Shown: positions 4,973 through 27,412 of the stretch, piece by piece
Layout of the letters: the number at the start of each line of letters is the position of its first letter
How positions within the stretch are numbered: the first letter of the stretch is position 1
NCBI RefSeq assembly: GCF_017303155.1
Contig: NZ_JAEKJR010000002.1
Coordinates: forward strand, 1,860,001-1,924,000
DNA: 64,000 bases
Direction: 5' to 3'
Origin: Microbulbifer salipaludis
GTDB lineage: Bacteria > Pseudomonadota > Gammaproteobacteria > Pseudomonadales > Cellvibrionaceae
Made by a program: the position numbers and the translations under genes
The notes under the pieces: model-generated
Told to the model about the DNA's origin: nothing
The model's database searches: none
Seen by the model: only the letters and a program-made list of their open reading frames with translations

Positions 4973-5518
4973 ATGGCATCTCTCCAGGATCAGCTCTTGA
5001 AGGCCGGCCTTGTCGATAACAAACAGGCCAAAAAGATCAGTAAAGAAAAACGCAAACAGAACAAGGTGGCCAAGAAGTCCGGCGAAGCACAGGTCGATGA
5101 GGCCAAGCAGGCCGCAGAGGCCGCCCGCGCAGCCAAGATTGCCCGGGACCGGGAACTCAACGCCCAGCGCGAGGCCGCCGCACAGCAGAAAGCCATTGCG
5201 GCCCAGATCAAGCAGATGATCCAGCACAACAAGCAGCCCAAGGGCGCCAACGGTCGCGACGATGTGGCCTACCACTTCACCTTCGAGAAGAAGGTAAAGA
5301 AAATCTATGTGTCCACTGCGGTACAGGAGCACCTGACTGGGGGCCGTCTGCTGATTGTTGGGGAAGGCGAGGAATTCGAGCTGGTGCCGCGGGTCATTGC
5401 CGACAAGATCGCCGAACGCAACCCGGCCATGGTGGTACAGCCACCGCAACAGTCCACCCCACAGGACGAAGACGATCCCTACGCGGGCTACGAGATCCCC
5501 GACGACCTGATGTGGTAA
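4973..5518 (+). CDS. DUF2058 (YaiL-like) protein
   Basis: A 181-residue cytoplasmic protein matching the DUF2058/YaiL family. The highly basic, alanine-rich, probably helical N-terminal half (about 10-80) contains many Lys/Arg and KKISKEKRKQNK. The C-terminal half is compact (about 95-160, DVAYHFTFEKKVKKIYVS). Family members are described as nucleoprotein or polynucleotide-associated, but no activity is established. It is followed after 17 nt by the DUF1415 gene on the same strand, so the two probably share a transcript. Start is the first ATG after a candidate promoter at 4893-4921. Confidence 0.88.
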   Translation: MASLQDQLLKAGLVDNKQAKKISKEKRKQNKVAKKSGEAQVDEAKQAAEAARAAKIARDRELNAQREAAAQQKAIAAQIKQMIQHNKQPKGANGRDDVAYHFTFEKKVKKIYVSTAVQEHLTGGRLLIVGEGEEFELVPRVIADKIAERNPAMVVQPPQQSTPQDEDDPYAGYEIPDDLMW

Positions 5519-5535
5519 CCCTTGGGGGATATGTC

Positions 5536-6090
5536 ATGACCGATAGTGACCCGATTATCGCCCAGGTCGAGCAGTGGCTAAGGGACGTAGTGGTCGGGCT
5601 CAATCTCTGCCCGTTTGCGCGCAAGCCGTTGCGTGCCGGGCAGATTCGCTTTGTGGTGAGCGATGCCACCAGCGACGAGGTATTACTGGAAGAGCTGCAG
5701 GACGAGTTTCAGGTGCTCGACCGCACCCGGCCCGAGGAAGTGGAAACCACCCTGCTGATCCTGCCCACACACCTGCGGGATTTTCACGATTACAATTTTT
5801 TCCTGGGGGAGGCTGAGCGCCTGCTGCAGCGAGAGGGCTATGAAGGCACCTATCAGGTAGCCAGCTTTCACCCCCACTACCAATTCGCCGGCACCCAACC
5901 GGACGATGCGGAGAACCTCACCAATCGCGCCCCCTACCCCATTCTGCATCTACTGCGGGAAGAAGGCCTCGAACGGGGACTGCGCAATTACCCAGACCCG
6001 GAAAGCATCCCGCACAACAATATCCTGCGAGTAGAAGCGCTGACGGAGAAAGAGAAGCGCGCGCTGTTCCCCTACCTGTTTTCTCCGTGA
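5536..6090 (+). CDS. DUF1415 family protein
   Basis: A 184-residue conserved protein of unknown function. The family signature is visible: QWLRDVVVGLNLCPFA near the N-terminus, then HDYNFFLGEAERLL and YQVASFHPHYQFAGT, with NRAPYPILHLLREE toward the end. Conserved Cys, His, Asp and Glu residues suggest an enzyme, but no reaction is known. Start at 5536 is chosen over an ATG eight codons earlier because GGGGG lies 6-7 nt upstream and the earlier start would overlap the previous gene. It converges with the SulP gene, whose stop lies 27 nt away. Confidence 0.88.
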   Translation: MTDSDPIIAQVEQWLRDVVVGLNLCPFARKPLRAGQIRFVVSDATSDEVLLEELQDEFQVLDRTRPEEVETTLLILPTHLRDFHDYNFFLGEAERLLQREGYEGTYQVASFHPHYQFAGTQPDDAENLTNRAPYPILHLLREEGLERGLRNYPDPESIPHNNILRVEALTEKEKRALFPYLFSP

Positions 6091-6117: not shown

Positions 6118-7881
6118 TCAGGTCGAACAGCCGGTACTGTTGTGCCGCAATTCACTGAATGCCTGATACTGCGTAAAGAATATTTTCCCGGAAATTTCAT
6201 TCAAAAAGCCCGAGCGCTGCAGGCTGTCCATTACCGGGCCCTTCACTTCAGACAGATGCAGACACACCCCGCCCTCTGCCAACTGCACATTAATGGATTC
6301 CAGGGTTTCCAGCGCGCTCCAGTCAATTTCGTTGACCGCGCTACACATCAGAATCACATGGCGAATTTCCGGATTGGACGCGACATCGGCATAGATACGC
6401 TCCTCCAGAAACGCGGCGTTGGAAAACATCAGACTTTCGTCCACGCGAATAGTAAGGACCTGCGGTACCGTAAGCACAGCATGCCGCTTGATATTGCGAA
6501 AATGCTCCGTACCCTCTACCAACCCCACTTCAGCAATATGCGGCTTGGAGGTGCGATATAGGAACAGCACAATCGATGCCACCACACCGCAGGACACACC
6601 GGCTTCCACCCCGAACAATAGCGTGACCACAATAGTGACGAGCACGGCAAAAAAGTCACTGGGCGAGAAGCGCCAGGTTTTCTGCAATATGGAAAAATCC
6701 ACCAGTGAGAGCACGGCAACGATGATCGTGGCCGCCAGGGTGGCCTTTGGCAGGTAGTAAAGGAACGGGGTCAGGAATATAGCCGCCAGCGCAATGCCAA
6801 TAGCGGTAAATATGCTGGCCAGCTGGGTCTCGGCGCCCGCATCAAAATTGACCACCGACCGGGAAAACCCGCCGGTAACCGGGAAACCACCGGAAACCCC
6901 GGAGGCCATATTCGCCGCGCCCAGACCAATCAATTCCTGATTCATGTCCACTTTCTGGCGACGCTTGGCCCCCAGGGTCTTGCCCACCGAAATCGATTCC
7001 ACATAGCCGATGATGGAAATCATCACCGCGGGCATCCACAACTGCTGGATCAATGCCAGGGAAAAACTCGGCCAGGCGAAGCTCGGCAACCCACTGGGGA
7101 TTTCCCCCACCAATTTTACGCCCCTGGACTCCAGGTCAAATCCGCTGGCGAGCAAAACAGTAACGATGACCCCCACCACCGGGGCGGCCTTCACCACCAG
7201 CGCAGCAGCATTGCGGGACAACGAGCATCGCTGCAGTAGCGCTACCGCACCGCGTCTTGACCAGAACAAAAACCCTACCACGCCAGCGCCAAGCAACAGG
7301 GTATAGAGATTGATGTTGCCAAGACCTGCATACATGGAATGCAACAGTTCGGGCAGGTTATCGCCGTGCGCCGAAATTCCCATCAGGTGCTTGAGCTGAC
7401 TGAATGCGATCAGAATCCCGGAGGCGGTGATAAACCCGGAGATTACCGGATGCGACAGGAAGTTGGCGAGGAAGCCCAGACGTAAAATACCCAGCAACAG
7501 CAGAAACAGGCCAGACAGTATCGCCAGCAACACCGCCGCAGACAGATAGTCCGCGGTACCCTGTGCGGCCACCTGTCCCAGTGCTGCCGCGCTCATCAGC
7601 GACGCAACCGCCACCGGCCCCACTGACAGCGTACGGCTACTACCAAACAGGGCGTAAGCCACCAGCGGCGCGATACTGGCATACAGCCCCACCTCTGCCG
7701 GCAGCCCCGCCAGCAGGGCATACGCAAGGGATTGCGGAATCAGCATAATGGTGACGATGACCGCGGCCAGCAAATCCCTGTGCAGGGATGCCAACGAATA
7801 CCCTCGCAACCACGTCACGGCGGGAACCACTCGGGCCAGCGCCTGCGAAGTGTCGTTATTGGAGACCTCTTTCACCAACAC
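6118..7881 (-). CDS. SulP family anion transporter with STAS domain (copy 1)
   Basis: A 587-residue inner-membrane protein of the SulP/SLC26 family (sulfate, bicarbonate or related anions). The N-terminal transporter domain has the SulP signature (LIPQSLAYALLAGLP, VGLYASIAPL) and about 10-14 hydrophobic helices up to about 435. A cytoplasmic STAS domain occupies about 470-575 (LHLSEVKGPVMDSL). The start is GTG with GAGG just upstream; a second GTG two codons later is equally plausible. Last gene of the leftward operon (19-nt gaps), after the DUF442 and persulfide-dioxygenase-like genes, so export of sulfite/sulfate or import of a sulfur oxyanion is likely. It is a close paralogue of the SulP at 10682. 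Confidence 0.9.
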   Translation of the reverse strand: MLVKEVSNNDTSQALARVVPAVTWLRGYSLASLHRDLLAAVIVTIMLIPQSLAYALLAGLPAEVGLYASIAPLVAYALFGSSRTLSVGPVAVASLMSAAALGQVAAQGTADYLSAAVLLAILSGLFLLLLGILRLGFLANFLSHPVISGFITASGILIAFSQLKHLMGISAHGDNLPELLHSMYAGLGNINLYTLLLGAGVVGFLFWSRRGAVALLQRCSLSRNAAALVVKAAPVVGVIVTVLLASGFDLESRGVKLVGEIPSGLPSFAWPSFSLALIQQLWMPAVMISIIGYVESISVGKTLGAKRRQKVDMNQELIGLGAANMASGVSGGFPVTGGFSRSVVNFDAGAETQLASIFTAIGIALAAIFLTPFLYYLPKATLAATIIVAVLSLVDFSILQKTWRFSPSDFFAVLVTIVVTLLFGVEAGVSCGVVASIVLFLYRTSKPHIAEVGLVEGTEHFRNIKRHAVLTVPQVLTIRVDESLMFSNAAFLEERIYADVASNPEIRHVILMCSAVNEIDWSALETLESINVQLAEGGVCLHLSEVKGPVMDSLQRSGFLNEISGKIFFTQYQAFSELRHNSTGCST

Positions 7882-7900
7882 AATTCCTCTGTCAGGCGCC

Positions 7901-8308
7901 CTAGTAGGTCACCAACACGCCGCTAACGTCAAAGCCCGCCTGCTGCGCGGCCTGCTGCAGCTGTTTCTTGTCGGCGCCGTTCAGACAACTGGCCGCCGCC
8001 CACAGATTGGCAGAGCGGTTGCCCGTACGACAAAACGCATGGACCTTTTTGCCGCTGTTCAACACCTTGGCAAATTCCTCGCTGTGGGCGGGCTGCATCT
8101 GGCCGCGGCAAAACGGGATGGCGATAAACTCCATGCCCGCCGCGGTCACTGCCTGCTCCAGCTCCGCAAAGGAAGGCTGTCCCTCTGCCTCTTCCTCCAG
8201 GCGATTACAGACCACGACCGCCACTCCAGCCTCGGCTAGCGTCGACATTTCGCTCAGTGCCGGCTCCGCGGATACGGAGACCTGCTTATCCAGTTGTTTG
8301 CTCTCCAT
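7901..8308 (-). CDS. DUF442 (Blh-N) rhodanese/phosphatase-like sulfur transferase
   Basis: A 135-residue protein of the DUF442 / TIGR01244 family, a tyrosine-phosphatase-like fold used as a sulfurtransferase domain. The catalytic loop is HAFCRTGNRS with Cys93; an upstream GMEFIAIPF strand also fits the family. In Xylella and Agrobacterium Blh proteins this domain is fused to a metallo-beta-lactamase; here the two are separate genes 19 nt apart. Start at 8308 is supported by GGAGGG 8 nt upstream; the open frame continues 48 codons upstream but would overlap the preceding gene. Middle gene of the leftward sulfur operon. Likely role: passing sulfane sulfur between thiol carriers (inference). Confidence 0.85.
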   Translation of the reverse strand: MESKQLDKQVSVSAEPALSEMSTLAEAGVAVVVCNRLEEEAEGQPSFAELEQAVTAAGMEFIAIPFCRGQMQPAHSEEFAKVLNSGKKVHAFCRTGNRSANLWAAASCLNGADKKQLQQAAQQAGFDVSGVLVTY

Positions 8309-8327
8309 TACGTATTCCCTCCAACCA

Positions 8328-9206
8328 TCACAGTTTGTTGATCGGCACTTTGAGATACACGGTGCCGTTGTCTTCTGCCGGCGGCATTTGTCCGGCCCGA
8401 ATATTGACCTGAATCGAAGGCAGGATAAGACGCGGCATCGCAAGAGTGGCATCCCGCTCGCTGCGCATTTTTACAAACTCGTCTTCGCTGATGCCGTCGT
8501 GCAGGTGAATGTTGCTGCGCTTTTGTGCACCCACGGTGGTTTCACACTGATACTCGCGGGCGTCATTCGGCGGGTAGTCATGACACATAAACATCCGGGT
8601 ATCCTCCGGCAGAGCCAGCAGCTTCTGTACCGACTGGTACAGGGCACGCGCATCACCGCCGGGGAAATCACAACGCGCACTGCCCACATCCGGCAGGAAC
8701 AGGGTATCGCCAACAAACAGGGCATCCCCAATCAGCCACGCCATATCTGCCGGTGTGTGCCCGGGCACATAGATCACCCGCCCTTGCAGCGCACCAATGG
8801 TGAAGGTGTCGCCATCGCCAAACAGGTGGTCAAACTGGGAGCCATCCACCAGAAACTCTTTTTCCAGATTGAATACATCGCGGAAGATGCCCTGCACCTG
8901 ACAAATGTGGTCGCCGATGGCGATCTTGCCGCCGAGCTGATCGCGGATGTAGGGCGCAGCGGAGAGGTGGTCCGCATGGGCATGGGTTTCCAGTACCCAC
9001 TCAACCGTCAGCTCTCTCTCACGCACGAAGGCGACTATTTTTTCTGCGCCCTCGGTACTGGTGCGGCCCGAGGCCTGGTCGAAGTCCAGCACCGCGTCGA
9101 TCACCGCGGCGCTACCGCCATCCCGGTCATAGATCACATAGCTCCAGGTTTCGGTATCCCGGTCGAGAAAGGCTTCAACAAAAGGGCGTGTGGCAATAGT
9201 GGTCAT
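8328..9206 (-). CDS. Persulfide dioxygenase-like metallo-beta-lactamase (Blh/ETHE1 type)
   Basis: A 292-residue cytoplasmic hydrolase-fold enzyme. The metal ligand set is visible: THAHADHL (His75, His77, Asp79, His80), His150 in VPGHT, Asp167 in FVGDTLF and His209 in MCHDYPP. In the ETHE1 group the first and second His plus an Asp bind one Fe(II) that oxidises glutathione persulfide to sulfite. The DARCD/SARCDF segment (about 175-182) and the length fit the bacterial persulfide dioxygenase/Blh subgroup rather than GloB. First gene of the leftward operon, transcribed away from the BigR-type repressor. A glyoxalase-like activity cannot be excluded without assay. Confidence 0.88.
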   Translation of the reverse strand: MTTIATRPFVEAFLDRDTETWSYVIYDRDGGSAAVIDAVLDFDQASGRTSTEGAEKIVAFVRERELTVEWVLETHAHADHLSAAPYIRDQLGGKIAIGDHICQVQGIFRDVFNLEKEFLVDGSQFDHLFGDGDTFTIGALQGRVIYVPGHTPADMAWLIGDALFVGDTLFLPDVGSARCDFPGGDARALYQSVQKLLALPEDTRMFMCHDYPPNDAREYQCETTVGAQKRSNIHLHDGISEDEFVKMRSERDATLAMPRLILPSIQVNIRAGQMPPAEDNGTVYLKVPINKL

Positions 9207-9390
9207 GGTCTTCTCCCATCTGGCGGCCCCGAAAGAGGCTTAGATGATTTAGGAATAACTTAATAACTGAGAGAAATATAACTTCCATTACTATACTTTT
9301 CAATATAATATTTTTCCCGAAACTGTTAGCGCGCCAGCGGGTCACCATCCGGAGCCCCGTCCACGCTCAAGAGATCGCTCAAAGACCACC
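9207..9390. promoter_or_regulatory. Divergent control region of the sulfur module, with palindrome at 9302-9312
   Basis: This 184-nt intergenic region is strikingly AT-rich around 9250-9320 in a GC-rich neighbourhood. It holds TATAAT at 9304-9309 (rightward -10) embedded in a perfect interrupted palindrome AATAT-A-ATATT at 9302-9312. BigR/SqrR repressors bind AT-rich palindromes overlapping promoters, so this is the natural operator candidate for control of both operons by the ArsR gene at 9391. The -35 element is poor by eye. Confidence 0.5.
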
Positions 9391-9705
9391 ATGCCCGACA
9401 CCAGTGACATCCAGCTCGACAAAATGCGTGCCGCCGCGGGAGAGGCTTCCCTGCTGTTGCGCTCACTGGGAAACCAGGATCGCCTGCTGCTGCTGTGTCA
9501 GCTAAGCCAGGAAGAATTGTGTGTCAGCGAAATTGAAGAACGACTGGATATTCGCCAGCCAAGCCTTTCGCAACAGCTGGGCGTACTGCGCCGGGAAGGC
9601 CTGGTCACCACCCGCAAGGCGGGCAAGCGGGTCTACTACCAGGTAGCTGACCCGAAAGTCCTGGCCCTGCTAAACACTTTGTATCAACTGTATTGCGCGG
9701 AGTAA
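9391..9705 (+). CDS. bigR: BigR/SqrR-type ArsR family repressor
   Basis: A 104-residue winged-helix regulator. The HTH region is about 45-75 (SEIEERLDIRQPSLSQQLGV) and the wing follows (TTRKAGKRVYYQV). Cysteines are at 36 (LLLCQL), 44 and 102 (LYC near the end). Cys36 and Cys102 fall where BigR and SqrR keep the two cysteines that form a disulfide or polysulfide bridge to release DNA in response to reactive sulfur species; Cys44 is extra. It is divergent from the persulfide-dioxygenase-like operon and 9 nt upstream of pmpA. Predicted role: derepress both operons under sulfide or persulfide stress. Classical metal-sensing ArsR motifs (ELCVCDL) are not intact. Confidence 0.85.
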   Translation: MPDTSDIQLDKMRAAAGEASLLLRSLGNQDRLLLLCQLSQEELCVSEIEERLDIRQPSLSQQLGVLRREGLVTTRKAGKRVYYQVADPKVLALLNTLYQLYCAE

Positions 9706-9714
9706 CTCACCACC

Positions 9715-10149
9715 ATGAACATTGACTGGAACGCATTTACCCCACTGACCGCCCTCGCCGGCGGCGTGCTTATCGGGCTTGCCAGCGCCTGGCTCATCCT
9801 GATGAATGGCCGAATTGCCGGCATTTCCGGCATTCTCGGCGGCCTGCTGAACAACGAACGCGGCAACCGCGGCTGGCAACTTGCCTTTATGCTCGGGCTG
9901 CTCGCGGGTCCCGCCATCTGGGCCCTGTTCCACGCCCTTCCCTCCATCGAAATCAACGCCAGCTACCCGGTGCTCATCGCCGCCGGCCTGTTGGTGGGCA
10001 TTGGCACCCGCTACGCCGCGGGCTGCACCAGCGGCCACGGCGTCTGCGGGCTGTCCCGCTTGTCGCCGCGGTCACTGGCCGCCACCCTGACCTTTATGTT
10101 TGGTGGTTTTGCCACTGTGTACGTTGTCCGTCATTTGCTGGGGGCCTGA
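9715..10149 (+). CDS. pmpA: YeeE/YedE family membrane protein PmpA
   Basis: A 144-residue inner-membrane protein with about four hydrophobic helices. It carries the family motif [15 protein letters not shown] with Cys104 and Cys111. YeeE relatives conduct thiosulfate through a path lined by conserved cysteines; in split systems PmpA and PmpB each supply half of the fold. Translation starts 9 nt after the ArsR gene and its stop lies 4 nt before pmpB, so the genes are co-transcribed. Expected role: movement of thiosulfate or a related sulfur species across the inner membrane (family inference). Confidence 0.88.
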
Positions 10150-10153
10150 AGCC

Positions 10154-10576
10154 ATGAATAAAGTCACCATCTCCGCCTTCGTATCCGGCTTGATTTTCAG
10201 CTTTGGCCTGCTGCTCTCCGGCATGGCCAATCCGGAGAAAGTCCTCGGCTTTCTCGACCTGTTTGGCGCCTGGGATCCCTCCCTGGCGCTGGTAATGGGC
10301 GGCGCTATCGCTGTGGGCCTGCCCGCCTTCCTGATCGCCCAAAAGCGAACCAACGCGATTTTGGGTGAGCCGATGCACCTGCCCGCTAACCGCAAGCTGG
10401 ACAAGCGCCTGCTACTGGGCAGCCTGGCGTTCGGTGTTGGCTGGGGACTGGCAGGTTTTTGCCCGGGCCCGGGCATTGTTGCCTCTGGAGCGCTCGAGCC
10501 TGGCGCCCTGGTATTCGTGCTGGCCATGGTGAGCGGGATGCTGGTATTCCGACAGCTCGAACGTCGCACCCGCTGA
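10154..10576 (+). CDS. pmpB: YeeE/YedE family membrane protein PmpB
   Basis: A 140-residue partner of PmpA with about four hydrophobic helices and the second YeeE-type cysteine motif GFCPGPGIVASG (Cys103). The start is the ATG 4 nt after the pmpA stop; the open frame extends upstream inside pmpA but is not used. Split PmpA/PmpB pairs next to BigR-type regulators are a recurring arrangement in sulfur-stress operons. Substrate specificity cannot be read from sequence. Confidence 0.87.
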   Translation: MNKVTISAFVSGLIFSFGLLLSGMANPEKVLGFLDLFGAWDPSLALVMGGAIAVGLPAFLIAQKRTNAILGEPMHLPANRKLDKRLLLGSLAFGVGWGLAGFCPGPGIVASGALEPGALVFVLAMVSGMLVFRQLERRTR

Positions 10577-10681
10577 ACCCCACATCCGCCAAACCCTGGA
10601 AGCGGGGCCAAACTGGCCCTGCGCCCGCAGCAGCAGCTATCCTGATGGAATCCATCAGGCCTCTGGACCACTACTGCATAC

Positions 10682-12418
10682 GTGAAGCGGGCATACCGAC
10701 TGATACCCAACTGGCTGAGAAACTACCGCCGCCGGTGGCTGGCTTCTGACCTCACCGCGGCGCTGGTTTCCGGCATGTTGCTGGTGCCTCAGGGGCTGGC
10801 CTACGCACTGCTGGCCGGCCTTCCCCCTCATGTGGGGCTCTACGCCAGCCTGGTCCCACTGATCGCCTACGCTGCCTTTGGCAGCAGCAGCGCCATGTCC
10901 GTCGGCCCCGCTGCTGTCCTCTCCTTGATGACGGTCTCCGCCCTGAGCCCCCTGGCCGCCGCCGGCAGCCCGGAATACATCGGCGCCGCAATCGTGCTGA
11001 CACTCCTGAGCGGCCTGTTCCTGTTCACCATGGGGCTGTTCAAGCTCGGTACCCTGGCGAATCTGCTCAGCCATCCGGTAATCAGCGGATTTGTGTCCGG
11101 TGCCGCCGCACTGATTATTGTGGGCCAGCTCCCCGCACTGCTGGGCATAAAAGCAGACGGCGAAACCGCGTCCATAAAGCTGTTTCATATCCTGGAACAC
11201 CTGCCCGATGCCCACCTGATCACCATGGCGTTCGGAGTGACCACGGCGGTGGTGCTGATCTTCAGCCGGCTGTGGCTACCCATGCTGCTGTTTCGCCTCG
11301 GCGCCCCCAAACAATTCGCGCGCCTGGCGGCGCGGTTGATGCCAATGCTGCTGGTCCTGTGTGCCATCGGATTGGTGCACTGGCTGAAACTCGGGGACAA
11401 GCTGGATATTGTGGGCGATATTCCAGCCGGGCTACCGGAGATGGCGCTGCCCGACTGGGACGGCAACCTGGTGTACCGGCTATTGCTGCCGGCCCTGATT
11501 ATTTCCCTGCTGACCTTTGTGGAAAGTCTTTCCATCGCCCAGGCACTGGCCGCACGGCGAGGGGAACGCCTCAACGCAGACGGAGAACTCCTCGGGCTTG
11601 GCGCCGCCAACATCACCAGCAGCCTCTCCGGTGGACTGCCGGTGGCGGGCAGTTTTTCGCGCACCGCCGTCAATGCCGAAGCGGGCGCGGTCTCGCCATT
11701 GGCCGGCGTACTCGCGGCACTCATGATGGTACCGGTACTGCTGTACCTCACCGGCCTGTTCAGCGAGCTGCCACTCACCGTGCTTGCGGGCATCATCATT
11801 GTCGCCGCTGCAAGCCTGTTTGATTTTCGCGGTTTCATTCACAACTGGCGCTATGACCGCACCGATGGTATCGCCATGTTATGCACCTTTATCGGTGTGC
11901 TGCTGTTTGGTGTCGAAGTGGGTATTGCGCTGGGTATCGGCCTCTCGTTTGCCACCCTGATCTGGCGAAGCAGCCGGCCACATATCGCGGTCGTGGGGCG
12001 GATGCCCGGCACGGAGCAGTTCCGCAATGTGCTGCGGTACGATGTAGAAACCCACAAGGACATTCTTTTCCTGCGTATCGACGAGAGCCTGTTCTTCAGC
12101 AATATCAGTGCCGTGGAAGACCGGCTGCTCAGCGAACTGAAACGCCACCCGGATACCCGCGACCTGGTGTTGATCCTGTCTTCGGTGAGCCGCATAGACG
12201 GCACCGCACTGGAGCGCCTGCATCAGATCAACAAGGACCTTCGCAGTCGCAGCATTCGCCTGCACCTTTCCGAAGTAAAGGGACCGGTACTGGATCGCCT
12301 GAGCCGCTCCAAACTGCTGGAAAAACTCACCGGTCGTATTTTCCTGTCGTCCTACATCGCAGAGCTGGCGCTGCGCCACGGCAACGAAGCACCTCCTGCC
12401 GAGGAGGAGCCCGCATAA
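10682..12418 (+). CDS. SulP family anion transporter with STAS domain (copy 2)
   Basis: A 578-residue SulP/SLC26-type permease. The transporter domain occupies about 15-430 (LVPQGLAYALLAGLP, VGLYASLVPL, LSHPVISGF) and the STAS domain about 460-570 (LHLSEVKGPVLDRL). Start codon is GTG with no strong Shine-Dalgarno in front; the nearest ATG upstream (10645) is out of frame. It lies 105 nt after pmpB with no terminator seen between, so it probably belongs to the rightward operon. Long identical stretches with the SulP at 6118 show the two are paralogues placed on the outer flanks of the module in opposite orientation. Confidence 0.9.
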   Translation: MKRAYRLIPNWLRNYRRRWLASDLTAALVSGMLLVPQGLAYALLAGLPPHVGLYASLVPLIAYAAFGSSSAMSVGPAAVLSLMTVSALSPLAAAGSPEYIGAAIVLTLLSGLFLFTMGLFKLGTLANLLSHPVISGFVSGAAALIIVGQLPALLGIKADGETASIKLFHILEHLPDAHLITMAFGVTTAVVLIFSRLWLPMLLFRLGAPKQFARLAARLMPMLLVLCAIGLVHWLKLGDKLDIVGDIPAGLPEMALPDWDGNLVYRLLLPALIISLLTFVESLSIAQALAARRGERLNADGELLGLGAANITSSLSGGLPVAGSFSRTAVNAEAGAVSPLAGVLAALMMVPVLLYLTGLFSELPLTVLAGIIIVAAASLFDFRGFIHNWRYDRTDGIAMLCTFIGVLLFGVEVGIALGIGLSFATLIWRSSRPHIAVVGRMPGTEQFRNVLRYDVETHKDILFLRIDESLFFSNISAVEDRLLSELKRHPDTRDLVLILSSVSRIDGTALERLHQINKDLRSRSIRLHLSEVKGPVLDRLSRSKLLEKLTGRIFLSSYIAELALRHGNEAPPAEEEPA

Positions 12419-12495: not shown

Positions 12496-14769
12496 ATGTC
12501 AGGTGACACCTCCCAGCCCCCGGAAACGCTCACGGAAGAGCAGCAGGCCATCGCCAACCATTCCGGCGGGCATGCCAAAATCATTGCCGTTGCCGGTTCC
12601 GGAAAAACCACGGCCCTGCTCTACTACATCAAAAACCGACTGACAGCCGGCGTGGCCCCCGGGCGCATGCTGGTACTGATGTACAACCGCAACGCGCGAG
12701 AAGATTTTGCCCAACGCTTGGCAAATCTTTGCGGCACTTCCGTTCCCCCGGTCAACACCTTCCATAGCCTCGGTTTCAGAATTTATCAGCGCCTGATCGC
12801 TCGCGGCCAGATTGAACACACCAATCTCAACCCGCTGCCGCAATCTGTGGTCCAGCTGCAGATCTGGAAAGCCATTGAGGCTTGTGCGCCACCGGCAGAA
12901 ATTGAAGACATTCGCGCGCGCAAACAGTCAGAAACCGAGGCCGCCGAGTTTTTTATCGATTACACAAAGACCGTACTCAGCGGCGACCTGAGCGCGTTCC
13001 AGCGCCTCAAACTCGGCGATGAGTACCTGTATTTCCTGAAGGTATTTCGCCATTTTGAAAACTGGCGACGAGAACAGAACGCGGTGACCTATGCGGACCT
13101 GATTTATGACCCGGTCATGCTGTTTAGCCAGCAACCGGAAATCGCAGAGCAGTATGGCGGGTTTTACGAGGATATCCTGGTGGACGAGTATCAGGACATC
13201 AACGAAATCCAACACTACCTGCTACGTGTTTTACATGGCAAATCCGGCAACGTCATTGCCATCGGCGACCCGGATCAAACCATTTATGAGTGGCGCGGGT
13301 CGCGCCCAGAATTCCTATTGCGGTTGTTCGATGGGGATTTCCCGCCGTCGAATGTTTATCAGCTGAGCCGCACCTTTCGCTACGGCCACAGCCTGTCGCT
13401 GGCGGCCAACCACTTCATTCACAATAACCGTGAGCGCGCAGATATTTTCTGCGTATCCGGTAACCCCCACGCCGAAACCCAATTGCAACAGGTGCATACG
13501 GAAAATGAGGGCAAGTGGCTGGTGGAACACCTGCGCCGCTGCCAACAACAGGGTACTTCGCTTGCCACCATAGCAATACTGGTGCGGCTCTGGTCCGTGG
13601 CCGCGCCGCTGGAACTCGCCCTGTTGGCCAACAACATTCCCTATCGCTCCGGCAACCGCAATACGGTACTGTCACGACGCGAGCTGCGCCCCCTGTTCTG
13701 GAGCCTGAATATCGCCGCCGGCCGATTTGCCGAGCAGACCAGCAAACGCCGCGCCCAGGGTCTCTACGAATGGATGACCGCACCGCACATCCGGATTCCC
13801 CGTGCGATTCTCGAGCCTATCTGTGAGCGCCTCGCCCACCATGAAAAAGGCTGGGGCAAGCAGCTGCTCAAGCTGATTCCGGAGTCCCTCAGCCAGCATC
13901 AGTGCAAGCGACTCAGGCAGCGCGCGGAACTGTTACAGCAAGTGGAAAAATGGCGCGGTCACGGCGGCGAACTGGTACGTCGACAACTGAGTGACCTGGA
14001 TTATCTGAGCGGAATCGGCGAAGACGCGTTCAATCGCCAGCAGGCAGAAGAAAAGCAGCAAACCATCCTGGCCTTCTGCCAGTACCTGGATCAGTTGCGC
14101 ATGCCTGCACGAGAAACACTGGAACATCTTCAGCAGCTCCAGCGCCAGCATCAACAGCAGCATGGTGGAGAAGACAGCCCGACCGCCGAGACAGCGGCAG
14201 ACGCCATTCAAATCACCACCATGCACCAGTCCAAGGGACTGGAATGGGATCAGGTGATCATTCCCTCGATGACCGTGCACAACATGCCTTACCAGCCCCA
14301 GCGGGACTTCTCCACCCCCGCATCCACGGAAAGTGAGCGCCGATTGATGTATGTGGCCATGACCCGTGCCAGAAAACAGCTCTACCTGCTGACACCCGCG
14401 CCGGAAACGAATGCACGCAATCCCCGCGAAGCCGATTCAGAGCAAAAGCCGTCGGTGTTTCTCGATGAAATGCACCTGCCACTCAGCAACCTGCTCGGAG
14501 AAACCTTACCCGCGCGCCCGCCCAATATTACGACCCCGGTTCCGGTAACCCGCCTCGCCCTCCGGTATCTGGCTGCCTGTGATTACAACCCCGAGATCAA
14601 TGCACCGCGCGCCGCACTGCGCAAACCGCAGCTCGGGGAAAGTATCCAACACCAGAAGCTGGGCTACGGCAGGGTGACCAGGTGGGAAGATTCGAAAGTG
14701 GAAATATTGTTCAGCGATCGCAAGACACGCCGCTTTGAGTGGGAAAAGCTTTCACAATTTCTGATGTAA
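12496..14769 (+). CDS. UvrD/Rep-family superfamily 1 DNA helicase
   Basis: A 757-residue SF1A helicase. Motifs in order: Walker A AVAGSGKTT (31-39), motif II VDEYQD (about 229-234), motif III GDPDQTIYEWRG (about 254-265), LSRTFRYG, motif V TTMHQSKGLEW (about 573-583) and motif VI YVAMTRAR (about 618-625). A C-terminal Tudor-like segment (about 714-757, HQKLGYGRVTRW) resembles that of PcrA/UvrD. It translocates 3-prime to 5-prime on single-stranded DNA in repair (family knowledge). Start taken at the ATG behind the SOS box; the open frame runs 205 codons further upstream but overlaps the SulP gene. It differs from canonical UvrD, so no gene symbol is given. Confidence 0.88.
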   Translation: MSGDTSQPPETLTEEQQAIANHSGGHAKIIAVAGSGKTTALLYYIKNRLTAGVAPGRMLVLMYNRNAREDFAQRLANLCGTSVPPVNTFHSLGFRIYQRLIARGQIEHTNLNPLPQSVVQLQIWKAIEACAPPAEIEDIRARKQSETEAAEFFIDYTKTVLSGDLSAFQRLKLGDEYLYFLKVFRHFENWRREQNAVTYADLIYDPVMLFSQQPEIAEQYGGFYEDILVDEYQDINEIQHYLLRVLHGKSGNVIAIGDPDQTIYEWRGSRPEFLLRLFDGDFPPSNVYQLSRTFRYGHSLSLAANHFIHNNRERADIFCVSGNPHAETQLQQVHTENEGKWLVEHLRRCQQQGTSLATIAILVRLWSVAAPLELALLANNIPYRSGNRNTVLSRRELRPLFWSLNIAAGRFAEQTSKRRAQGLYEWMTAPHIRIPRAILEPICERLAHHEKGWGKQLLKLIPESLSQHQCKRLRQRAELLQQVEKWRGHGGELVRRQLSDLDYLSGIGEDAFNRQQAEEKQQTILAFCQYLDQLRMPARETLEHLQQLQRQHQQQHGGEDSPTAETAADAIQITTMHQSKGLEWDQVIIPSMTVHNMPYQPQRDFSTPASTESERRLMYVAMTRARKQLYLLTPAPETNARNPREADSEQKPSVFLDEMHLPLSNLLGETLPARPPNITTPVPVTRLALRYLAACDYNPEINAPRAALRKPQLGESIQHQKLGYGRVTRWEDSKVEILFSDRKTRRFEWEKLSQFLM

Positions 14770-26653: not shown

Positions 26654-27412
26654 ATGATCACAATCCACCCGATATCGGCTTTTAGCGACAACTATATCTG
26701 GCATTTGCATCAAGATCGCGAACATTGGGTGGTAGACCCCGGAGATGCCACCCCGGTGATAGATGCTTTGGGAGAGCAGCAGCTGCAGGGCATCCTGCTC
26801 ACCCACCACCACTTCGACCACACCGGCGGGGTGCAGGCCCTCAAGGAAAAGTATGACTGTGAGGTCTATGGTCCGGCGTCAATCCAGGGCGTCACTCGCC
26901 CCCTGCAGGACGGCGACCGCTTTTCCCTGTTGGGATGCGACTGCGAGGTGATCGCTGTCCCCGGACACACCCTTGATCACATCGCCCTGGTGCTCACTGA
27001 AGGCAGCACTACCCACCTGTTTTGTGGCGACACCCTGTTCGCGGCCGGCTGTGGGCGCCTGTTTGAGGGCACCCCACAACAGATGCACCAGTCGCTGTCG
27101 CGCCTGGCGGCCCTCCCTGAAGCAACCAAGGTCTACTGCGCGCACGAATACACCCTCGCCAACCTCGCCTTTGCCGCCGCCGCGGAGCCCGGCAACCCGG
27201 ATATCAAGGAACGTATGGCCGCGGCACGCGCTGCGCGCGCACAAAATCACCCAACGCTACCCTCCACCATCGGAACCGAGTTGCAAACCAACCCCTTCCT
27301 GCGCACCCAGTCTCCAGAAATTCAGGCACAGGCTGCTGCGCAAGGAGGCGACACGGCAAAAACAGCTGTAGAAATATTCGCCAGTTTACGCCGCTGGAAG
27401 GACACTTTTTGA
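26654..27412 (+). CDS. gloB: Hydroxyacylglutathione hydrolase (glyoxalase II)
   Basis: A 252-residue metallo-beta-lactamase-fold enzyme. Binuclear metal ligands are in THHHFDHTGG (about 50-59), PGHTLDH (about 104-110), CGDTLFAAGCGR (about 124-135) and CAHEYTLANL (about 161-170). The C-terminal SLRRWKD matches the GloB glutathione-binding tail. It hydrolyses S-lactoylglutathione to lactate and glutathione, completing methylglyoxal detoxification. A GGGGAG ribosome site precedes the ATG. Confidence 0.95.
   Translation: MITIHPISAFSDNYIWHLHQDREHWVVDPGDATPVIDALGEQQLQGILLTHHHFDHTGGVQALKEKYDCEVYGPASIQGVTRPLQDGDRFSLLGCDCEVIAVPGHTLDHIALVLTEGSTTHLFCGDTLFAAGCGRLFEGTPQQMHQSLSRLAALPEATKVYCAHEYTLANLAFAAAAEPGNPDIKERMAAARAARAQNHPTLPSTIGTELQTNPFLRTQSPEIQAQAAAQGGDTAKTAVEIFASLRRWKDTF

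Follow-up and report, generated by a model that had tools for sequence, protein, structure and literature searches.

The 64,000-nucleotide stretch of Microbulbifer salipaludis DNA analysed here (the window) carries at positions 6118-12418 seven genes in two divergent operons, which rather plausibly form a locally repressed unit that imports sulfane sulfur and burns it. The unit probably handles sulfane sulfur and not sulfide itself. Observed at the locus are a gene order conserved through the genus, conserved catalytic and sensor residues and a promoter layout, and no sulfide:quinone oxidoreductase (SQR) was detected in the genome. The seven genes are:

6118..7881, minus strand: SulP1, predicted SulP/SLC26 anion transporter with STAS domain (PF00916, 358.2 bits; PF01740; TIGR00815, 460.8 against a cut-off of 380.45)
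7901..8308, minus strand: DUF442 (TIGR01244), predicted stand-alone sulfur transferase (PF04273, 63.6 bits; TIGR01244, 99.3 against a cut-off of 85.85)
8328..9206, minus strand: PDO, persulfide dioxygenase homologue of the MBL fold, Blh-type (PF00753; PDO half of the Blh model, 384.8 bits)
9391..9705, plus strand: ArsR repressor of the BigR/SqrR/HlyU kind (PF01022; solved relatives; cysteine pair)
9715..10149, plus strand: PmpA, C-terminal half of a YeeE/YedE-type transporter (PF04143, 34 bits against a cut-off of 27, profile positions 178-309 of 310)
10154..10576, plus strand: PmpB, N-terminal half of a YeeE/YedE-type transporter (PF20398, DUF6691, 175.9 bits)
10682..12418, plus strand: SulP2, predicted SulP/SLC26 anion transporter with STAS domain (PF00916, 326.1 bits; TIGR00815, 440.9, over the cut-off)

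The positions and families given for these genes in a preliminary description agree with the open reading frames (ORFs) and with the Pfam and NCBIfam matches, and its two divergent operons are borne out, SulP1-DUF442-PDO lying back to back with ArsR-PmpA-PmpB-SulP2. Within the operons the genes are 19 bp (SulP1/DUF442 and DUF442/PDO), 9 bp (ArsR/PmpA), 4 bp (PmpA/PmpB) and 105 bp (PmpB/SulP2) apart; the DUF442 start at 8308 is a chosen one, the longest ORF beginning at an upstream ATG at 8452. A PDO match above 490 bits was found in 47 of 48 Microbulbifer genomes, the exception (G136) being an assembly that is 80% complete, and the nearest named relatives of the window PDO are those of Microbulbifer agarilyticus (86% identity), M. 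yueqingensis (82%) and M. variabilis (75%). The complete seven-gene order is present in 41 of the 47 genomes whose PDO stretch was read (the order table has 49 rows, G110 being entered again as L125 and G098 having a further locus, L155).

The intergenic region is AT-rich, as had been noted (G+C 0.23 at 9240-9320 against 0.58 window-wide), and separates PDO from ArsR by 184 bp in the window and by 91-184 bp among the 45 genus regions aligned, L011 and L026 being left out. It contains the following elements:

9270..9317, no strand: putative bidirectional promoter/operator core with two CAATATA boxes 27 bp apart, start to start (genus conservation and shuffle control)
9275..9280, minus strand: predicted -10 TATATT of the PDO operon, in the left CAATATA box (consensus scan)
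9298..9303, minus strand: predicted -35 TTGAAA of the PDO operon (consensus scan, 10/12 together with 9275-9280, spacer 17)
9304..9309, plus strand: predicted -10 TATAAT of the ArsR operon, in the right CAATATA box, with a weak -35 near 9282-9287 (sequence and footprint)
9302..9312, no strand: palindrome AATAT-A-ATATT (read from the sequence; its right arm varies among relatives)

Paired CAATATA boxes with at least 13 of 14 bases and a spacing of exactly 27 bp occur in 44 of the 45 regions, all except L136. The same pair was found in one of 4,500 dinucleotide-shuffled regions, and in the genus regions the other spacings from 22 to 31 bp gave none and a spacing of 32 bp gave three. In a genome-wide search the 18-mer box had one exact occurrence and one with three mismatches, with none for the control pattern, so that control looks local. 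The preliminary description had placed a palindrome over a single -10. The palindrome does cover TATAAT, but in its strict form it is not the conserved element, and in place of one -10 there appear to be two overlapping divergent promoters, of which the consensus scan reported that of the PDO operon and not that of the ArsR operon. Because these promoters face and overlap each other, a single repressor dimer could shut both, and the conserved core is likely the shared, putative repressor target. Close relatives of the window also keep an additional AT-rich stretch in the leader of the PDO operon (9230-9268, around ATGATTTAGGAATAA and TAATAAC), which the shorter intergenic regions elsewhere in the genus do not show.

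The best solved relatives of the ArsR protein are 3pqj (a biofilm growth-associated repressor), the 13ct/6o8l series and HlyU; we take the 13ct, 6o8k and 6o8l chains to be SqrR. In alignments with the solved BigR chain and the 13ct/6o8k chains, its Cys36 and Cys102 fall on cysteines and would be the equivalents of BigR Cys42 and Cys108, which places the protein, by its residues, among candidate BigR/SqrR-type sensors. Both are kept in 46 of the 46 best genus matches, Cys44 in only 30 (L011 gave no match, and the best match of L026 is a different, 39%-identical ArsR). BigR Cys42 and Cys108 respond to sulfide and polysulfide (PMC5823870). The general ArsR/SmtB metalloregulator model is passed (82.8 bits, cut-off 55), and the curated BigR equivalog NF040642 gives 99.6 bits, under its cut-off of 155. 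The earlier identification as BigR holds for the persulfide-sensing kind with paired cysteines; by the equivalog rule the protein is a relative and not BigR.

The MBL protein appears, as the preliminary description proposed, to be a persulfide dioxygenase homologue; it is presumably of type II and keeps its ligands. Its best solved relatives, 9g8t, 4ysk and 4efz, match over nearly the full length and the ligand positions H75, H77, D79, H80, H150, D167 and H209 are kept in 46 of 46 genus matches, both consistent with a Blh-type persulfide dioxygenase. In DUF442, Cys34, Cys93, Arg94 and Arg98 are likewise kept in all 44 genus matches; each residue count covers those genomes whose stretch, among the 47, gave a match at E 1e-10, and L026, where the stretch is cut, had no PDO match. 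The claim that DUF442 and PDO are separate genes and not a fused Blh also stands, as the fused Blh model NF040641 (cut-off 625 bits) matches two separate proteins, at 70.3 (DUF442) and 384.8 bits (PDO), each below the cut-off. The BlhA protein of Serratia sp. ATCC 39006 is presumably of the fused DUF442-PDO form. A second MBL-fold protein, a 256-aa frame on the plus strand at about 26903-27154 with a weak 34-bit PDO match, may be a glyoxalase II, and in several genus genomes some 18 kb separate it from PDO.

PmpA weakly matches the TsuA-TsuB chain at 211-327 (E 0.039), a segment that includes its Cys104. Cys104 and Cys111 of PmpA and Cys103 of PmpB are kept in all 44 genus matches of each protein. 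PmpB, whose name is based on size, position and a published description, gave only chance-looking matches to solved structures. The Cupriavidus pair YedE1E2 imports zero-valent sulfur without exporting it, feeds PDO2 and depends on Cys104 and Cys101 (PMC10812762). The essential Cys104 of YedE1 bears the same number as Cys104 of PmpA (PMC10812762), and PmpAB, as two short proteins each with a cysteine, would fit this type, an equivalence by residue number and context rather than by alignment with the Cupriavidus proteins. Thiosulfate induces yeeE, yedE and both pdo genes in a sulfane-sulfur-accumulating mutant of Cupriavidus (PMC9959259).

With Sulfate_transp and STAS domains and TIGR00815 over its cut-off, SulP1 and SulP2 are both predicted members of SulP/SLC26. 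A recent tandem duplication was ruled out by their 43% identity and their separate supported clades, and these clades indicate that two older lineages were brought together. In a tree of 62 of 96 SulP rows, from which near-copies and repeat fetches had been removed, SulP1 falls within a 39-row clade (support 99/99) that includes 27 SulPs coded at PDO loci of other genera. SulP2 groups (99/97) with SulPs of Acidovorax, Methylobacillus and Iodobacter, four in all, of which three lie in ArsR-PmpAB loci. A third SulP forms a very long branch in this tree, and the join of Iodobacter to SulP2 likewise draws long-branch warnings.

Among the 80 loci most like the window PDO, out of at least 586 PDO-coding stretches, ArsR stands back to back with PDO in 35 and ArsR-PmpA-PmpB in 23, six of the latter with SQR near and 13 with SulP on the ArsR side; contig ends cut some loci, and these counts are lower bounds. 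SQR was found near PDO in 30 loci, SulP in 36 and DUF442 in 25, and SulP on both sides in three, all Microbulbifer. Having DUF442 and PDO in separate genes is not peculiar to the genus, since DUF442 is near PDO in only 25 of the 80 loci and is fused to SQR in a family relative. In that relative's locus (L028) PDO is followed by a DUF442-SQR fusion (9905-11572, DUF442 at the N-terminus) and then by SulP, beside a sigma-54 activator that we take to be FisR-like.

The preliminary description had spoken of a complete sense-oxidise-transport circuit; as a complete circuit for sulfide it lacks support, because SQR was not found in this genome. A single SQR query gave none in six of six Microbulbifer genomes and none in two of four family relatives of other genera. 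With an 11-row model (ten rows of the mitochondrial type and one distant row), a clear SQR emerged in one of the 48 genus genomes (637 bits in G098), only partial matches below 29 bits in 25 others and no match at E 0.001 in 22, the window genome (G000) included, with the limit that a very different SQR could escape the model. Proteins labelled SQR match the solved mitochondrial-type SQRs best, and the SQR of G098 does so at 313 bits. Its locus is a separate one (L155:8091-11977), shared with a FisR-like activator and with a second PDO that has 56% identity to that of the window. The query sequence draws only 22-30 bits from solved SQRs of other types and 55-81 from flavocytochrome c, so distant types may be present in the 25 genomes with weak matches; our weighing of the alternatives is unchanged by this limit because the window genome had no match at all.

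From these observations we infer a course of events that runs from repressor binding and its inducer, through coupling of DUF442 with PDO, to the directions and substrates of transport. ArsR, as a BigR/SqrR-type dithiol repressor, would sit on the core at 9270-9317 and block both overlapping promoters, until sulfane sulfur linked Cys36 to Cys102, releasing it and allowing expression of both operons. PmpA and PmpB would carry zero-valent sulfur or thiosulfate across the membrane, DUF442 would pass sulfane sulfur to glutathione, PDO would use oxygen to turn the persulfide into sulfite, and the two SulPs would move oxyanions (sulfite, thiosulfate, sulfate), most likely outward. This outline draws on PMC5823870 for sensor chemistry and enzyme coupling, on PMC10812762 for import and on PMC7315123 for a parallel in Acinetobacter. 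A bolder form of the proposal, which we doubt holds as a whole, is a switch, widespread in the genus and independent of SQR, for extracellular zero-valent sulfur, in which PmpAB would import the inducer and the unit would feed itself once derepressed, PDO with free DUF442 would yield sulfite, the two distantly related SulP lineages would export two different oxyanions, and one operator would govern two overlapping promoters competing for the polymerase site.

Several observations weigh against the import and burning of sulfane sulfur under local repression. An importer within a detoxification unit is odd, as it would bring in the inducer. The dyad evidence for an operator exceeds the control level modestly, the best dyad (centre about 9299.5, 10-bp arms) having a mean complementarity of 0.666 against 0.636 at the 95% level of 200 column-permuted controls. 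The SqrR operator motif, given as ATTC-N8-GAAT (PMC9774250), is absent from all 45 intergenic regions, that of the window included, so the operator differs from that of SqrR. In L126 (G003) and L154 (G140) PDO, ArsR and SulP2 are present and PmpA, PmpB, DUF442 and SulP1 are unmatched in the stretches read. As to transport, five TauE-family proteins coded elsewhere in the genome could export sulfite, and a SulP could be a sulfate importer, given that no CysT above cut-off was found in G000 in a search that covered neither CysZ, PiT-type importers nor sulfite reduction genes. The best CysT candidate proved to be ModB beside ModA. A PF00174 (Oxidored_molyb) protein considered as a sulfite oxidase is MsrP with MsrQ and is the sole such protein in G000, where no sulfite oxidase of that fold was found. 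Import as a general rule is also called into question by Hyphomicrobium, where pmpA and pmpB are unaffected by thiosulfate (PMC11582611).

The locus could alternatively serve sulfide stress, with H2S as the main substrate being oxidised to persulfide by an unrecognised enzyme and the persulfide removed by DUF442 and PDO. BigR itself is H2S-responsive (PMC5823870) and other genera often have PDO near SQR (30 of the 80 loci), but with no match to the mainly mitochondrial-type SQR model in this genome, and the one clear SQR among the 48 genus genomes at the separate locus L155, we consider this unlikely. Assimilatory scavenging would have PmpAB and the SulPs import thiosulfate, zero-valent sulfur and sulfate, and PDO and DUF442 make sulfite for cysteine synthesis. 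It would suit the lack of a CysT permease above cut-off and the thiosulfate import described for YeeE-type relatives (PMC11582611, PMC9774590). However, the adjoining regulator is of a persulfide-sensor kind and the SulP1 kin in other genera adjoin PDO and often SQR, and scavenging seems to us quite unlikely.

Lastly, ArsR might be an ordinary metal sensor in an incidental neighbourhood, as its passing the general metalloregulator model would allow; yet the solved structures that it resembles best are the chain of BigR and the ArsR chains 13ct/6o8l, its cysteine pair is invariant where Cys44 is not, and ArsR and PDO stand back to back in 35 of the 80 loci, all of which make this highly improbable.

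Among the exceptions within the genus, L011 (G035; 6375-6530) has lost ArsR and, with it, the right-hand half of the promoter core, and PDO, DUF442, both SulPs, PmpA and PmpB match over nearly their whole length; L149 (G126) had no SulP1 match in the stretch read. Two genomes, G110 (L026/L125) and G127 (L136), carry a second, BigR-like ArsR that is 39% identical and 99% alike between them. In G110 the block in the divergent region (L125:2733-8473) includes, beside this ArsR, genes for an exporter of the MMPL/RND type, a protein resembling LolA, a 419-aa protein whose DUF1302 match falls below the cut-off, and a rhodanese; the original place of ArsR shows only a 35% match with a stop codon. The G127 block (L136:19-5741) reads similarly, its ORFs being of 851, 264, 419 and 120 aa, the family scan having been made on G110; in G127 a 61% ArsR match remains, and the stretch read ends before the expected position of PmpAB. 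Flanking the module, DUF2058 and DUF1415 (4973-6090) match beside it in 19 of 46 other genus genomes and a UvrD-type helicase frame (12497-14769) in 43 of 46, some stretches stopping short of the flanks.

Most of the parts are known from other bacteria, and the locus is therefore a tidy variant of a known arrangement and not a new kind of system. A close precedent is PigS/pmpA-pmpB/blhA of Serratia sp. ATCC 39006 (Gristwood 2011), which, going by its title and by descriptions in other papers, shares the ArsR repressor, PmpA and PmpB, divergent operons and a BlhA partner; unlike it, Microbulbifer has DUF442 and PDO apart and a SulP at the end of each arm. In Acinetobacter baumannii BigR controls yeeE-yedE-pdo2 (PMC7315123), likewise a BigR-type dithiol repressor with a PmpAB-type pair and a second PDO in an operon without SQR. 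In the text of that paper, however, no DUF442 is mentioned, its passages on the operon describe no SulP, and the main work is done by a separate FisR-controlled PDO-SQR operon, a kind of locus found in one of the 48 Microbulbifer genomes. The bigR operon of Xylella and Agrobacterium is similar in its BigR control and in coupling a sulfur transferase with a sulfur dioxygenase, the DUF442 and PDO activities of Blh (PMC5823870), and differs in that Microbulbifer has split genes and SulPs. In the mto clusters of Methylophaga a SulP stands beside PDO in a sulfur oxidation cluster with SqrB, but these clusters are tied to methanethiol oxidase and SQR, with no ArsR-PmpAB arm in the parts of the description available (PMC6548844). 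Particular to the Microbulbifer unit are the separate DUF442 and PDO genes, the two old SulP lineages on the two arms and the scarcity of SQR. Among open-licence papers we found none on Microbulbifer with sulfide and persulfide.

In this compact and well-conserved locus, control by persulfide, import of sulfane sulfur, oxidation and the transport of anions seemingly depend on one operator, in a genus where a clear SQR occurs in only one of 48 genomes. Its natural exceptions, the joint loss of ArsR and half the core and the two genomes in which another ArsR and an exporter block of the RND type occupy the divergent region, are ready comparisons. It also provides a simple setting for two questions, namely what the cargo of the PDO-linked SulPs is and why an enzyme that removes sulfur shares its control with a sulfur importer.

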